A stretch of 25,753 nucleotides of DNA from a virus, in the IMG/VR virus record IMGVR_UViG_3300009433_000048, positions 1 to 25,753 of that record; one strand, written 5' to 3'. Below are positions 8,140 through 14,824 of the stretch, piece by piece. Each line of letters opens with the position of its first letter. Position 1 is the first letter of the stretch. The notes under the pieces are model-generated. The model worked only from the letters and a program-made list of their open reading frames with translations. It did not search any database and had not been told where the DNA came from. The position numbers and the translations under genes were made by a program.

Positions 8140-10524
8140 ATGGCAGAGAGAATTGTCTCACCGGGCGTATTTACTCGTGAAAAAGATCTCTCTTTCTTAC
8201 CTCAAGGTATTGCCGAAATAGGTGCTGCATTAATAGGTCCTACTAAAAAAGGACCTGCTTTTGTACCAACTGTAATTCGCAATTTCCAAGAGTTTGAAGA
8301 GATGTTCGGATCTTTAGATGATCGTTTTTACGTACCAATAACTGCTAGAGAATATCTACGAAGTGCGGGAACTGTAACAATTGTACGTGTTTTAGGTATC
8401 GGAGGATACTCATCAAACACCGTACAGATTTCTGCAGATAGAAGCGGCACAGAAGAAAAACAACTATACTTAGTACTAGCACCAAATGCTCTGACTGTAG
8501 GAGAATTAACACCTCTCGCATCTACACATGTATCTGGTACATTTAGTGCTTTTGATGTAAGTTCTGGAAGCTATCAGTTTTCCGCATCATTCGATGCCTC
8601 TAGTAACAAATACTATAAGGATGTCTTCAGTGACAATCCAATATCAACTAAAGCACAGGGTAATGACTGTCCCTTTTACATCTATAAGCAGTTTCCAGTA
8701 GGAGCTACAGCAAACGCTTCAGGTGGATCTGCTGTGACAGGCTCTGTTGTACCACTAAATCTTTTACAAGACTACAAGAAGGCATTAACACCTTCTATTC
8801 TTAGTCAAAAACAAGATGGTAATGCTGAGAACTTGTTTCAAGTTGCTTTAAGACATGATGGCGAAACTGAAACAAACAAGCACTTTAAAGTAGCTATATC
8901 AAATGTAAAACAGGCTTCAGAAGTACCAGGTTCAGACTACGGAACTTTTAGTTTACAAGTTAGAAAAATTGATCAGCAAACATTTGCAGCAGCAGATGAT
9001 GAAATTGTAGAACAGTTTGACAACTTAAACTTAGATCCTAAGTCAACAAACTTCTTGTGTAGAAGAGTTGGAACAAGGTGGATTTCTGTTGACTCAGATG
9101 GAAAAGTTAATTACAACGGTGATGCTGAATGGCCAAATCTCTCTAGATATGTCTTCATCACAGGTAGTGCAACATTAAATGAAGGTGGATTTTCAAAAAG
9201 CTTAGTACCTTACGGCCACGCTGCAATGAAGCTTCCACAGTCATGTTCAGTTGACGATCCAACTGATCAACTAGCACAGCTTGTTAATAATACTTTTACA
9301 ACTTCACAGGTAAGCTCAACAACAAGTCAATATGACACTAGTATCTTCTACGGGTTTGATTTCTCAACAGAAGATAATAGAAGTTTTCTAATGCCGTTGG
9401 CAACCGATGCAGCTGTTTATCACAACCCATCATTTAGTTTAGATGATATGGTAGGTGATGCTAAGGCAACATCAGCGTTGTTTGGAGGTGCTACTACTTT
9501 CGCATCTGCTTCAACAGCTGTTAGCTTAACACATTCAAATGTAGCACAAAGAAAATTCTTTGTACCTCTACAAGGTGGATTTGACGGTGTCAATCCTGCA
9601 ATAAAGAAGAATACAGGTAAGAATATTACAGCTGCTAACCAACAAGGACTTGATTGTTCATCATCAACATCAAGTGGATCAGTTGCTTATGAAAGAGCAA
9701 TAAAAGCAATTAGTAATGCTGATGAGTTTGATATAAACTTATTATCTACTCCTGGCTTGATCTACAATTTGCATCCAAGCCCAATAAATCTTGCACAACA
9801 AACTGTACAAGATAGAGGTGATACATTTTATGTATTTGACTCAGTAGCTTGGGGTGATGGTATAAACACTGCTGTCAACGCTATAACTAGTGTTGATACA
9901 AACTATGCAGCTACTTATTATCCGTGGGTAAAACTACTTGATGATACAGTAAACTTACCGATATGGGTACCACCTTCAGTGGTAATTCCTGGTGTGATAG
10001 CTCAAAATGATAGAGTTGCACATGAATGGTTTGCACCTGCTGGTTTGAATCGTGGTGGATTAAGAGGTGTATTAGAGGCTAAAACTAGACTAACACACGC
10101 TGAAAGAGACTTGCTGTATGAAAATAGGATCAACCCTATTGCATCATTCCCAGGTCAAGGCGTTGTAGTTTTTGGTCAAAAAACACTTCAATCAAAGCCA
10201 TCTGCGCTTGATAGAATCAATGTTCGTAGGTTGTTAATTAGGCTTAAGAAGTTTATTGCTAGTTCTTCACGCTACTTATTGTTTGAAAACAATACAGTTG
10301 CAACAAGAGCAAGATTCTTAAACATAGTTAACCCTTATCTTGATTCAGTACAATCAAATCAAGGACTAACTGGTTTTAGAGTTGTAATGGATGACAGTAA
10401 CAACACACCAGATGTGATCGATAGAAATCAGCTGGTAGGACAGATATTTATACAGCCTGCAAGGTCTGTAGAATTTATCGTTCTTGACTTCGTTGTTCAG
10501 CCATCAGGAGCAACTTTCCAATAA
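8140..10524 (+). CDS. gp18: Tail sheath protein (T4 gp18-like)
   Basis: 794 residues, against 659 in T4 gp18. The N-terminal part is the conserved sheath start (IVSPGVFTREKDLSFLPQG, then AALIGPTKKGPAFVPTVI and an FxEFxxxFG block). The C-terminal quarter is the conserved inner domain that wraps the tube: WFAPAGLNRGGL, LLYENRINPIASFPGQGVVV, FGQKTL, RINVRRLLIRLKKFI and the final FIVLDFVVQPSG. The middle, rich in Ser/Thr/Asn, holds the variable outer domains and accounts for the extra length. The protein polymerises around the tail tube and contracts on infection. A GGAG site precedes the start, and a strong terminator follows, separating sheath from tube transcription. Confidence 0.95.
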   Translation: MAERIVSPGVFTREKDLSFLPQGIAEIGAALIGPTKKGPAFVPTVIRNFQEFEEMFGSLDDRFYVPITAREYLRSAGTVTIVRVLGIGGYSSNTVQISADRSGTEEKQLYLVLAPNALTVGELTPLASTHVSGTFSAFDVSSGSYQFSASFDASSNKYYKDVFSDNPISTKAQGNDCPFYIYKQFPVGATANASGGSAVTGSVVPLNLLQDYKKALTPSILSQKQDGNAENLFQVALRHDGETETNKHFKVAISNVKQASEVPGSDYGTFSLQVRKIDQQTFAAADDEIVEQFDNLNLDPKSTNFLCRRVGTRWISVDSDGKVNYNGDAEWPNLSRYVFITGSATLNEGGFSKSLVPYGHAAMKLPQSCSVDDPTDQLAQLVNNTFTTSQVSSTTSQYDTSIFYGFDFSTEDNRSFLMPLATDAAVYHNPSFSLDDMVGDAKATSALFGGATTFASASTAVSLTHSNVAQRKFFVPLQGGFDGVNPAIKKNTGKNITAANQQGLDCSSSTSSGSVAYERAIKAISNADEFDINLLSTPGLIYNLHPSPINLAQQTVQDRGDTFYVFDSVAWGDGINTAVNAITSVDTNYAATYYPWVKLLDDTVNLPIWVPPSVVIPGVIAQNDRVAHEWFAPAGLNRGGLRGVLEAKTRLTHAERDLLYENRINPIASFPGQGVVVFGQKTLQSKPSALDRINVRRLLIRLKKFIASSSRYLLFENNTVATRARFLNIVNPYLDSVQSNQGLTGFRVVMDDSNNTPDVIDRNQLVGQIFIQPARSVEFIVLDFVVQPSGATFQ

Positions 10525-10649: not shown

Positions 10650-11138
10650 ATGCCACAGCTGATAGATCCGACAGATATAATGTTTACTCAATTTGAACCA
10701 AAAGTTCAAAATAGGTTCATTATGTATATAGAGGGAATTCCAGCTTACACAATAAAAGCAGCTGCAAGACCTCAAATTAATTTCGAAGACATCACATTAG
10801 ATCATATTAATGTAAAACGTTATGTAAAAGGGAAAGGCGATTGGCAACCCCTAACAATAACAATGTATGATCCAGTTGTACCTTCCGCTGCGCAAGCAAC
10901 AATGGAATGGGTTAGATTATCACATGAATCTGTAACTGGTCGTGATGGCTACTCAGACTTTTATAAGAAAAACGTAACATTTAATGTTCTTGGACCTGTA
11001 GGTGACATAGTAGAAGAATGGCAATTAGTTGGAACTTATATCCAACAGGCTAACTTCGGCACACTTGATTGGTCTGCAAATGAGCCAGTCAATATTGAAT
11101 TGACACTCAGATACGATTACGCTGTACTACAGTTCTAA
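10650..11138 (+). CDS. gp19: Tail tube protein (T4 gp19-like)
   Basis: 162 residues, one less than T4 gp19. It has the typical features: MFTQFEPKVQNRFIMYIEGI (residues 11-30) at the start of the beta-barrel, then IPAYTIKAAARPQI, VKRYVKGKGDWQPLTITMYD and a final INIELTLRYDYA-like strand (NIELTLRYDYAVLQF). The protein stacks as hexameric rings inside the sheath. A GGAG ribosome site lies nine bases upstream. It is preceded by a terminator and followed by a structured intergenic region, so it may be expressed at its own, higher level. Confidence 0.95.
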   Translation: MPQLIDPTDIMFTQFEPKVQNRFIMYIEGIPAYTIKAAARPQINFEDITLDHINVKRYVKGKGDWQPLTITMYDPVVPSAAQATMEWVRLSHESVTGRDGYSDFYKKNVTFNVLGPVGDIVEEWQLVGTYIQQANFGTLDWSANEPVNIELTLRYDYAVLQF

Positions 11139-11239: not shown

Positions 11240-12007
11240 ATGTCTACAGTAAAAAAAGAAAGTAGGTTCCCTACTGAAGTAGTGGACCTTCCAAGCAAGG
11301 GACTCGTGTACCCAGAAGGCCACCCATTATCAAATGGTAAAGTCGAAATAAAATACATGACAGCAAGAGAAGAAGATATTCTAACGTCAGTCAATCTTAT
11401 ACAAGACGGAACTGTTATAGACGAATTGCTAAAATCAGTAGTTATTACTAAAGTTAATTTTGATGACATTATTATTGGTGATAAAAACGCAATTATGTTA
11501 GCAACAAGAATCTTAGGATACGGTAAAGAATATAAAGCAGAAGTTATCTGTAAAGAATGTGGAACAAAAGAAGAAACAGACTTCGATTTAACTGTATACA
11601 AATACAAAGATATAGATGAATCAAAATTCGCAAACGGAAATAAATTTGAGTATGAGCTTCCAAACTCTAAGAGAAAGATAGAGTTTAAATTGCTGACACA
11701 AGGAGACGAAGCAAAAGTAATCAAAGAGATACAGCGCCAAAGAGATGCAGGAATAAAAGCTATAGGTGAAATAACAACACGACTAAGGTATCAATTGATT
11801 TCTGTTGATGGTGAATCTGATCCTGAGACAATCACAAACTTTATTAACAATGAGTTTTTTGCTGTAGATTCTAGAGCTTTTAGAGAACACTATGCTGCTC
11901 TATCACCAGACGTAGATTTTAAGACACACTTTGGATGTGCTGCATGTAAAGCAGTACAAGACGTAGAATTGCCCATACAGACAAATTTCTTCTGGCCTTC
12001 CCGGTAG
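11240..12007 (+). CDS. gp26: Baseplate hub/assembly protein, T4 gp26-like (T4_baseplate family), zero-frame product
   Basis: 255 residues, against 208 in T4 gp26, with an AAGGAG ribosome site. The N-terminus carries the family signature: VVDLPSKGLVYPEGHPL (14-30) then VEIKYMTAREEDILTS (35-50), followed by VIDELLKSVVI. Two Cys pairs, C104xxC107 and C233xxC236, could form a zinc ribbon closing the fold. gp26 acts in assembly of the T4 central baseplate hub. It lies upstream of the tape measure gene, where other myophages keep their tail assembly chaperones. The zero-frame end is NFFWPSR and TAG at 12005-12007; a slippery heptamer at 11983-11989 could shift some ribosomes into the next ORF. Confidence 0.85.
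   Translation: MSTVKKESRFPTEVVDLPSKGLVYPEGHPLSNGKVEIKYMTAREEDILTSVNLIQDGTVIDELLKSVVITKVNFDDIIIGDKNAIMLATRILGYGKEYKAEVICKECGTKEETDFDLTVYKYKDIDESKFANGNKFEYELPNSKRKIEFKLLTQGDEAKVIKEIQRQRDAGIKAIGEITTRLRYQLISVDGESDPETITNFINNEFFAVDSRAFREHYAALSPDVDFKTHFGCAACKAVQDVELPIQTNFFWPSR
11983..11989 (+). promoter_or_regulatory. Candidate -1 programmed frameshift site, A AAT TTC
   Basis: The heptamer fits X XXY YYZ in the correct phase of the gp26-like frame: AAT (Asn249) and TTC (Phe250) can re-pair as AAA and TTT. The zero-frame stop follows 16 bases later. Only a weak CGG/CCG stem (12002-12004 with 12011-12013) is visible downstream and no clear upstream Shine-Dalgarno-like stimulator, so efficiency cannot be judged. 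Confidence 0.55.
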
Positions 12008-12216
12008 ACCCCGAATACAAGCCGATAGTACATGATGCAATATTCAGCCTCATTTACTACAGTGAAGGCGCATTTACATTCGGTGATGTGTATGAAATGC
12101 CAGTATACTTACGAAAATTTTATACTGATAAGCTGATCAAAGCTAGGACAAAAGAGAACGAGCAAGTCAAAAAAGTTTCTACAACATCAAGACCAAATAT
12201 ACAAAGACCTGGTTAA
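11989..12216 (+). CDS. Start-less ORF in the -1 frame, probable C-terminal extension of the gp26-like protein
   Basis: This stretch reads open for 75 codons to TAA at 12214-12216 in the -1 frame. The frame is open upstream only from 11950 and has no ATG, GTG or TTG before GTG 12088 and ATG 12097, which would leave about 40 codons. The sequence looks like real protein: PVDPEYKPIVHDAIFSLIYY, then SEGAFTFGDVYEMPVYLRKF and a charged tail. It resembles the short tail/baseplate proteins that follow gp26 in related phages, though I cannot confirm this. With the -1 shift after Phe250 the fused product would be 325 residues. Alternatives are a sequencing indel or an unusual start codon. Confidence 0.6.
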   Translation, partial: LLAFPVDPEYKPIVHDAIFSLIYYSEGAFTFGDVYEMPVYLRKFYTDKLIKARTKENEQVKKVSTTSRPNIQRPG

Positions 12217-12271: not shown

Positions 12272-12541
12272 ATGAAAAAATCTAAAATGAATGAAATAGC
12301 ACCAGCAGCGGTTGCAACATTTCTTATTGGAAGTTATATTTTATCTAAGCTAAAAGGGCAAGACTCTAAAGCAAAGAGAATAGCAAACCAAACAAAAGCT
12401 CTAGACTCAAAGATACAGTCACAATTAGATGCTATTGATAGACAAATAGATGCTAATGCAGAAGAAGTAAGAAAGAAAATAGAGAAAATGCCTGCTGATC
12501 AAAGGGCGAGGGTTGAAAAAATAGCAGCAATGTTTAAATAG
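12272..12541 (+). CDS. Small protein with N-terminal membrane segment and coiled coil
   Basis: 89 residues. After a basic start (MKKSKMNE) comes a hydrophobic segment, APAAVATFLIGSYILSKL (10-27), long enough for one membrane helix. The rest is a charged amphipathic helix (LDSKIQSQLDAIDRQIDANA, then EEVRKKIEKM). It lies between the gp26-like region and the tape measure gene. It could be a hub or tape-measure partner, or a membrane protein of the host envelope; no lysis-protein motif was recognised. Its ribosome site may be masked by a hairpin. Confidence 0.6.
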   Translation: MKKSKMNEIAPAAVATFLIGSYILSKLKGQDSKAKRIANQTKALDSKIQSQLDAIDRQIDANAEEVRKKIEKMPADQRARVEKIAAMFK

Positions 12542-12550
12542 GGAATATCA

Positions 12551-14824
12551 ATGCCCACAGTCACACAAAACGAAGTTAACTTACTAAAGCAGAAAGAAAA
12601 GCTACAAGAAAAAATAAATGATCTTGAAGCTAAGCAAGGTAGACTGTCACAAGCAGAAAGAGGAAAGCTTAAAGAGTTAGCAGTCCAGATGGATACACTT
12701 GATGTATCACTAACAAGTGTCACAAGTAAATTTGATATGGCTATTAAAAATCTTTCAGACCTTGCAAAAAGCGGAAGCGATGCGAAGATGGCATTTGAAA
12801 AGCTTGGCGCAACAAATGTTGACAAAGATTTAAGAAAAATAGCAGAGCAGTCGAATAAATCAGCAGAGTCTATAGCTTCTATGGTTGATAAGCTAAAAAC
12901 TCTTAATGCCCAGGGTCAAGGACAATCAAAAGCTGCAGCAGCAATAGAATCTTCACTAGCAATTGAGTCTGATATTCTTGGCATTTACGATGACAAATCA
13001 AAACTACTTACTTCAAATTTAATCTCTCTAGAGGCAGAAGTAGAGTTAGCTATATCTTTGCTTGATAAAAAAAGCGAAGAATATGAAATTGAATTAAATT
13101 TCTTAACTACTCAAAGACAAAGAGTACAAAATTTACAAACTCAACAGTCAAGGGCAAAGACACTAAATGATGTTGAGTCCAAAGGTGCAGAAATACAGAA
13201 AAAAATCGCTGAGTTTGCAAGTAATTTCGCTTCAGCTCAAGGGACAGCACTTATCGTAACAGGTGCTCTTGTTAAGGTTTTACAATTTGCTGCAAATGAA
13301 ACACGCGCAGTTCAAGAAGCAACAGGCGGTACGATAGGTAATTCAGCAGCATTAGCAGCAAATTTTAGAGCAAATTTAGGAACAACACAAAATTTATTAG
13401 GCACATTTACAGGTGTTAACTCAAAGATAAGAGATGCTGCATTTGAGGCTGGTAAAGTTGCAGACAATATGGATCTTGCAAATAATATGGCTATTGGAGT
13501 ATCTGACGCAACTCTTGCAATGCAGACAGGTTTAAGTAGCACACAAGTCGCAGAACTAGCTCAAATGATGTCAGAGGTCACTGATGTATCACGTGAAGGC
13601 GCATCTGCACAATTGGTAACCGTGCAAGCTCTAGCACAAGCTAACAAAGTTAACCCATCAAAAGTATTCGCATCTATGGCACAAAATGCAACAGTGTTAG
13701 CATCAATGACAGACGGATCTGCAGAGTCTATGGGTAAATTAGCAGTGCAGGCAGCGAAAGCTGGTGTAGAATTAAGCTCATTAGAATCTATTGCTGATAG
13801 CTTATTAAATATAGAAACATCAATAGCAGCAGAGTTTGAAGCTGAAGTATTGCTAGGTAGACAATTAAATTTAGATGCTGCTAGAAGATTCGCACTAAAC
13901 AACGACAATGAAGGCTTAATAAGAGAAATACAAAAGAATTTACAGGGTACAAGTTTTAGTGACCTAAACAGGTTACAAAGACAATCATTAGCTGCAGCAC
14001 TCGGAGTTAATGTAGCAGATCTCGGAAGAATAATAAGTCGTTCTGGAAATCAAAATGTTGTTGATGTTCAAGACCAGCAATTAAAAGGTTTAATGGAACT
14101 AAACGCACAAGGATCTTTAACTAATGATCTTTTAGGACAAATTTATAAGGCTGTATTTGCAATTGCAGCTGTTCAAGCTGTTGGAGGATTAAGTAAGATA
14201 GCAGAAAGCTTTAAAAATTTTAGTGGTGGTGGTATACTAAACTCATTTGGTAAAGGAATGCAAACATTTAATAGAGGCGGCGGTCCGGGTTTTGGTAGAA
14301 CACTATTAGGGAACGCAAGTAGACTCAAAGGTCCTGCAGCATTAGCAGCACTAACTGCAATTCCTGAGCTTATTGCATCACAAGATAAAGTTAGAGATGG
14401 AGCAGGAATATTTGGAAGAATTGGTGGTGGGATTGCAGCAGGTGCTGGATTAGGTGCTCTCGGAATGAATCCATATACAGTAATCGGTGGTGGTATACTA
14501 GGTGGAATATTTGGTGAAGCAGCGGTAGAAGGTTTAGTTGACTTGTTTAGAGGTGGATTTGCAAACGGTGGACCAGTAACAGAATCAGGTCTTGCAATGG
14601 TAGGTGAGAGAGGACCAGAGTTAGTAGCATTAGGTCGTGGATCACACGTAGTTCCGAATCACTATTTAGGTGGTTATCAAGGCGGTGCTACAAATATGAA
14701 AATTTCTGATCCAGATACACATCGTGCATTAATGACAATAGCATCACACTTAGAATCAATAAATACAAATACAGCAAACACTACAAAAGGTGTTAATAAT
14801 ATAGGCATAGCGACAGGAGCATAA
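12551..14824 (+). CDS. Tail tape measure protein
   Basis: 757 residues. The first 200 or so are coiled coil (LLKQKEKLQEKINDLEAKQG and on), the middle is Ala/Ser-rich helical, and residues about 620-665 form Gly-rich hydrophobic segments (GIGGGIAAGAGLGALGMNPY). The C-terminal region has the hallmark GGPVTESGLAMVGERGPELV with a following SHVVPN, near residues 673-702, as in tape measure proteins of many phages. The protein sets tail length; at roughly 1.5 angstrom per residue this would be near 110 nm, close to T4. It is expected to be ejected into the host. The start has a weak AGGGA overlapping the previous stop, and the stop overlaps the next start (TAATG). Confidence 0.88.
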   Translation: MPTVTQNEVNLLKQKEKLQEKINDLEAKQGRLSQAERGKLKELAVQMDTLDVSLTSVTSKFDMAIKNLSDLAKSGSDAKMAFEKLGATNVDKDLRKIAEQSNKSAESIASMVDKLKTLNAQGQGQSKAAAAIESSLAIESDILGIYDDKSKLLTSNLISLEAEVELAISLLDKKSEEYEIELNFLTTQRQRVQNLQTQQSRAKTLNDVESKGAEIQKKIAEFASNFASAQGTALIVTGALVKVLQFAANETRAVQEATGGTIGNSAALAANFRANLGTTQNLLGTFTGVNSKIRDAAFEAGKVADNMDLANNMAIGVSDATLAMQTGLSSTQVAELAQMMSEVTDVSREGASAQLVTVQALAQANKVNPSKVFASMAQNATVLASMTDGSAESMGKLAVQAAKAGVELSSLESIADSLLNIETSIAAEFEAEVLLGRQLNLDAARRFALNNDNEGLIREIQKNLQGTSFSDLNRLQRQSLAAALGVNVADLGRIISRSGNQNVVDVQDQQLKGLMELNAQGSLTNDLLGQIYKAVFAIAAVQAVGGLSKIAESFKNFSGGGILNSFGKGMQTFNRGGGPGFGRTLLGNASRLKGPAALAALTAIPELIASQDKVRDGAGIFGRIGGGIAAGAGLGALGMNPYTVIGGGILGGIFGEAAVEGLVDLFRGGFANGGPVTESGLAMVGERGPELVALGRGSHVVPNHYLGGYQGGATNMKISDPDTHRALMTIASHLESINTNTANTTKGVNNIGIATGA

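Follow-up and report, generated by a model that had tools for sequence, protein, structure and literature searches.

The tail assembly chaperones G and GT of phage lambda, described by Xu, Hendrix and Duda, are a short protein and a long, frameshift-extended protein produced by a -1 slip near the 3' end of a gene located between the tube and tape measure genes, and long-tailed phages are reported to share this tail-chaperone frameshift, 'except T4' (PMC5009743). In T4, gp26 and gp51 are counted among the hub assembly chaperones; gp51 is described as essential, without a known function and missing from the finished particle (PMC3004832). In PMC10885494, a 2022 study by Vladimirov, Gautam and Davidson, the title of which calls the T4-like genes TACs, is cited for T4-like phages in which two copies, one short and one long, take the place of frameshifting. 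This kind of system was therefore already known, to the extent conveyed by that citation; beyond the same study, as cited there, we found no literature on a frameshift in PF12322 genes.

The window, i.e. the whole 25,753-nucleotide stretch of viral DNA analysed here, carries a gene resembling lambda G/GT in all the aspects listed above: a short and a predicted frameshift-extended long form, a putative -1 slip near the 3' end and a position between the tube and tape measure genes. It differs from lambda in that no sequence relation was found by our searches, the phage has a contractile tail and the heptamer is A AAT TTC. The comparison with relatives presented below confirms that the out-of-frame arrangement is real, and indicates that the gene very probably makes a short and a longer tail-building helper protein via ribosomes slipping back one base near its end. 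The presence of such a pair in the T4 supergroup bears on the 'except T4' statement of PMC5009743. In addition, both the reversal of the slip direction and the lineage-wide survey appear to be new.

Gene layout around the probable frameshift site

A preliminary description of this DNA had proposed that a gp26-like gene is linked through a slippery heptamer to a 75-codon ORF in the -1 frame. On re-check, the coordinates, the length of the ORF, its phase and the heptamer all agree with that proposal (Table 1), and the fused zero-frame/-1 reading has the predicted length of 325 residues. This reading includes NFLLAFPVDPEYK, and the sequence TNFLLAFPVDPEYK lies within the peptide spanning the junction of the fusion. 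The gene order is tube, PF12322-gene/extension pair and tape measure, with the sheath gene further upstream; the site had been placed upstream of the tape measure gene, which is the case, with an 89-aa ORF intervening.

Table 1. Features of the locus in the window, with the evidence for their assignment
Feature	Coordinates	Strand	Evidence or remark
Tail sheath gene, contractile tail	8140..10524	+	PF04984 E 6e-13, PF17482 E 2.7e-11
Tail tube protein gene	10650..11138	+	phrog_4542 tail tube E 4e-26
Short product, gp26/gp51-family PF12322 protein, 255 aa, zero frame	11240..12007	+	PF12322, phrog_150, AF2 model
Zero-frame ends	ATG 11240; stop TAG 12005-12007	+	
Putative slippery heptamer A AAT TTC (X XXY YYZ), zero-frame phase	11983..11989	+	In all 18 distinct clade junctions
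-1-frame extension of 75 codons lacking a standard start codon, three predicted helices	11989..12216, stop TAA 12214-12216	+	
Predicted long product, 325-aa frameshift fusion	11240..12216	+	Short protein through F250, then LLAFPVDPEYK...
89-aa ORF between tail extension and tape measure gene	12272-12541		No convincing family match
Tail length tape measure gene	12551..14824	+	phrog_8892 E 1.5e-8

The zero-frame protein matches PF12322 ("T4_baseplate") with an E-value of 2.7e-13 (50.6 bits, against a curated cut-off of 24.5) and the baseplate hub family phrog_150 (E 4e-18). Reading in the -1 frame is uninterrupted between 11950 and its TAA, and the earliest ATG, GTG or TTG within it is a GTG at 12088, 33 codons into the 75-codon tail, followed by an ATG at 12097; the -1 ORF is thus devoid of a usable standard start, as had been claimed. 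The heptamer ends 15 bases before the zero-frame stop. Heptamers of the form X XXY YYZ (Y = A or T) occur in phase just twice in the gene, as AAAAAAA at 11251 and as AAATTTC, the latter being found in phase only twice in the 21 genes (8145 codons) of the window.

With considerable confidence, we interpret this gene as coding for a pair of tail assembly chaperones comparable to lambda G/GT, in which a minority -1 slip at AAT TTC yields the 325-aa fusion. Specifically, the majority of ribosomes would end at TAG 12005, releasing the 255-aa short protein, while a minority, with tRNA-Asn and tRNA-Phe on AAT TTC, would slip one base back onto AAA TTT (11983-11989) and read on to 12214, giving a 325-aa protein in which an extra helical tail extends the N-terminal body of the short form. 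In analogy to the lambda proteins, the body common to both forms would cover the tape measure protein, encoded downstream, and tube subunits would be recruited by the added tail. The comparison of sequences itself shows the order of the genes, the phase, the conservation of the heptamer, the constraint on codons, the purifying selection acting on a tail that has no start codon and the occurrence of the same pair in relatives by other routes; the slip, its frequency and the binding partners are inferred.

Conservation of the two parts and codon constraint at the junction

Both parts were looked for in viral contigs and in phage records, and 180 loci, corresponding to 128 distinct junctions, contain them together; the latter is the safer number, since loci from successive searches overlap. 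Order and overlap of the two parts are shared, and at none of the 180 loci do they lie in the same frame, the extension being in the +1 frame in 138 and in the -1 frame in 42. The locus LR756511 (L027), showing a -1 ORF with an ATG at +2 and no clear heptamer, was excluded from the counts of the window's clade. In this clade, all 18 distinct junctions carry AAATTTC, and the heptamer, its phase and the absence of a start are conserved as the preliminary description had anticipated. The dN/dS values of the window's tail compared with three relatives (L005, L006 and L008) are 0.01, 0.06 and 0.05, respectively, indicating that the tail is translated and under purifying selection. This selection, together with the out-of-frame position of the extension in 180 of 180 loci, argues that the arrangement is not due to chance.

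Two of the outcomes named beforehand as speaking against a frameshift can be compared with the relatives. The first, a continuous single frame, is absent in the phage relatives examined, T4-type phages with a separate full-length gp51 apart. The second is a start codon belonging to the second ORF: starts near its beginning are sporadic in relatives and not conserved. In a virus record of 25.7 kb, one might suspect that an error in sequencing or assembly has broken up a continuous gene, or that the second ORF is what is left of a decayed one, but the same break recurs in many independent contigs as well as in sequenced isolates, and the selection acting on the tail likewise leaves these explanations with a negligible probability.

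The second ORF could also be a separate small protein, with ribosomes restarting on a non-standard codon once they have terminated in the zero frame (translational coupling), in which case no fusion would be made. Such a reading would suit some cyanophage relatives, in which an ATG or GTG lies no more than 5 bases from the zero-frame stop and the ORF is annotated as a separate 57-aa gp51, as well as the injection-system locus L297, with its TGATG overlap. We nevertheless consider it quite improbable, because of the late position of the first standard start in the window's tail and because the starts of relatives are sporadic, often with none until +20 to +53, though the residues ahead of them are conserved. 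Moreover, it leaves unexplained the fixed slippery codons and the rule on the base preceding the T run described below, and T4 gp51 holds both parts in a single protein.

At the F-F motif of the window's clade, the Phe pair is encoded by TTC-TTC in 17 of 18 junctions, TTC accounting for 23% of the clade's other Phe codons; the binomial probability given codon usage is 2e-21, a value that ignores relatedness and so overstates the significance. The preceding Asn is AAT in 18/18. More generally, the codons for N, the first F and S are fixed across the clade junction, and the second F and R have a major-codon share of 0.94, compared with an average of 0.65 for conserved columns. In the +1 sister group the Phe pair is TTT-TTT in 100 of 109 cases, and the codon preceding the T run never ends in T (0/109), though 87 could. 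The cyanophage type shows TTT-TTC in 56/56, always preceded by a T-ending codon. This codon rule follows from the direction of the slip: a -1 slip requires T TTT TTC or A AAT TTC, and the +1 pattern is accounted for by the lack of backward pairing, yet with forward pairing on UUU-U or UUU-C. The -1/+1 split, with T before the T run for -1 and never for +1, amounts to a natural experiment on what determines slip direction. At the junction the nucleotides themselves are constrained, beyond the amino acids.

The T7 run of the sister group, in some cases with GC-rich hairpins directly after it, would be compatible with a fusion arising from RNA polymerase slippage instead of ribosomal slippage. 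We regard this as very unlikely, given that the window site is only AAATTTC, with homopolymers no longer than 3, and that the relatives include the T-run variants TTTCTTT and TTCTTTT.

Regarding stimulators of the putative ribosomal slip, no Shine-Dalgarno-like element was found at the usual upstream spacing in the window's clade, nor was a stable downstream hairpin at the window site (z +1.03), the alignment containing only 4 nearly invariant base pairs; a search of the junction against Rfam gave only one chance match, under the cut-off. A stimulated -1 site of the dnaX type has both an upstream Shine-Dalgarno and a stable hairpin, whereas the window site has neither. At the cyanophage site, a Shine-Dalgarno-like element lies 5-11 nt upstream (mean down to -6.7 versus a background of 0.19 kcal/mol), the downstream structure has a z of -2.35, and a hairpin with one compensatory pair was found in the S-PM2 subgroup. 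A single consensus hairpin for all cyanophage types was considered and rejected, the hairpin being confined to the S-PM2 subgroup and missing from a second one. Some +1 relatives (L115, L116, L118, L130, L146, L153, L176 and L183) carry a GC-rich inverted repeat (e.g. GCCGCC..GGGCGGC) directly after the T run, a possible stimulator.

Probable slip direction and the pair in the T4 supergroup

The site of the +1 sister group is TTT TTT TGG, with the tail in the +1 frame. The closest annotated relatives of the window's body, the gp26-like genes of Flavobacterium phage immuto and Microcystis phage Mel-JY01 (45% and 42% identity, respectively), differ from it in having the extension in the +1 frame, at TTT CTT TGG and TTT TTT TGG, and bear no frameshift annotation. 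Among the 76 bodies placed in a tree, those of the window's -1 clade form a supported group (SH-aLRT 99) nested in an otherwise +1 group (93), which indicates that the shift direction was reversed here; four state changes are counted across the tree, the deep branches of which are long and unsure. The tree was built quickly, with SH-aLRT as its sole measure of support, so that the evidence for a reversal in the window's clade is good but falls short of proof.

For the sister group, a slip of -2 was also evaluated and set aside in favour of +1, since re-pairing fails for L064 (TTC TTT TGG) and L023 (TTC TTT CGT). The UUU CGU sequence is the +1 frameshift site of influenza PA-X, and the TTC TTT CGT junction, which belongs to Streptococcus phage GXN1 (L023:4196-4229), resembles it.

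In the T4 supergroup, cyanophage S-PM2 and 80 of 80 related viral-contig loci have gp26 genes whose end carries an in-phase T TTT TTC, with a -1-frame tail after it. The same holds for the jumbo phages GAP32, CBB, Munch, PA5oct, Vibrio 2.275.O, Phosso, Atu_ph07 and an Erwinia phage, for OLIVR5 and for two Straboviridae, AS-yj and ValKK3; KVP40-like phages likewise show T TTT TTC with a -1 tail, and pf16 and phiM12 have T TTT TTT. The S-PM2 gene resembles that of the window in being of PF12322 type, with an out-of-frame tail, followed directly by a long gene in the tape-measure position; it differs in its T TTT TTC site with Shine-Dalgarno-like and hairpin elements, and in that its tail is annotated as a gene of its own. 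This 57-aa entry, 'gp51, baseplate hub assembly catalyst' (L209:36191-36364), appears to be the gp26 frameshift tail annotated separately, and similar entries exist in other cyanophages. The S-PM2 -1 tail peptide would be ISMFYNNLENYYR, and the junction peptide would end in SFFR. Many cyanophage genomes contain a 'gp51' entry of its own for the tail, and such entries should be merged with gp26 as products of frameshifting.

The preliminary description had remarked that T4-type phages are not the textbook case of such a pair, to which we add that T4 has the same pair, gene 26 coding for the short form and a separate gene 51 for the long one. The products of both match PF12322, and T4 and Aeromonas phage 25 share with the window the short and long forms, the long one with an extra C-terminal tail; unlike the single frameshifted gene of the window, the two forms are encoded separately in these phages. 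In T4 gp51 the body continues directly into a tail aligning with the cyanophage tail. Specifically, phrog_634 is common to the S-PM2 tail (E 8e-29) and to residues 147-246 of T4 gp51 (E 1e-23), and the S-PM2 tail matches gp51 of Aeromonas phage 25 by tblastn (E 6e-5). For window-type tails, no significant direct profile match to T4 gp51 was obtained, and the tie runs only through the cyanophage tails; weak matches to the gp51-tail family were given by 6 of 60 relatives, the best with an E-value of 0.02. Position, motif and these weak profile matches thus hint at a relation between the window's tail and the gp51 tail.

Because relatives make the pair by the opposite slip or from two genes, the pair itself would be what evolution keeps. 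We consider it likely that the short and long forms are retained while the route to them changes, through +1 slips, -1 slips, gene duplication in T4 and, in injection systems, perhaps fusion into one ORF; the window's clade would represent a +1 to -1 reversal that took place at one and the same codon motif, the frame downstream of it having been adjusted accordingly.

Predicted fold, role and injection-system loci

The earlier proposal that the gp26-like protein and its fusion form a tail assembly chaperone pair finds support in this comparison of relatives. The frameshift could also be real and the long and short proteins be structural parts of the baseplate hub, not transient chaperones. The families bear the name 'baseplate hub', the homologue of phage CBB is annotated as 'structural protein', and T4 genetic work puts gp26 in the hub (PMC3004832), which is ill suited to a purely transient chaperone. 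The same source, however, treats both gp26 and gp51 as chaperones of hub assembly, with gp51 absent from the final particle; the gene order fits tail assembly chaperones, and the title of the 2022 study, as cited in PMC10885494, gives the T4-like genes this name. A structural role therefore seems unlikely to us, and a chaperone pair remains our preferred reading.

Body and tail were folded apart. The AF2 model of the body (pLDDT 91) resembles predicted baseplate-hub proteins of many phages, and neither fold nor sequence searches gave a convincing match in the PDB. Among the fold matches, the HK97 tail assembly chaperone 2ob9 (rank 6, TM 0.44 by target, E 3.9) and YqbN 3klu (rank 22, E 5.8), neither of which is significant, offer only a hint. 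The model of the tail (pLDDT 85) consists of three helices (8-24, 31-35 and 39-66), and its fold search against the PDB returned no convincing match.

A similar two-part order is found in contractile injection system loci, which combine a PF12322-like part with DUF6760 (PF20546); in this case, DUF6760 is connected with the phage tail by a pattern and by one match at E 0.16. On the minus strand of L290 and L297, an ORF of about 124 aa occupies the position of the PF12322-type body and DUF6760 overlaps it in the -1 frame, with no ATG, GTG or TTG start in L290 and the above-mentioned TGATG overlap in L297; a frameshift or coupling is possible at these injection-system loci. In two further injection-system-like loci (L303:1357-2121 and L304:1324-2088), which came from a genome search within the phylum of G075, a single continuous ORF encodes both a PF12322-like body and a tail resembling DUF6760.
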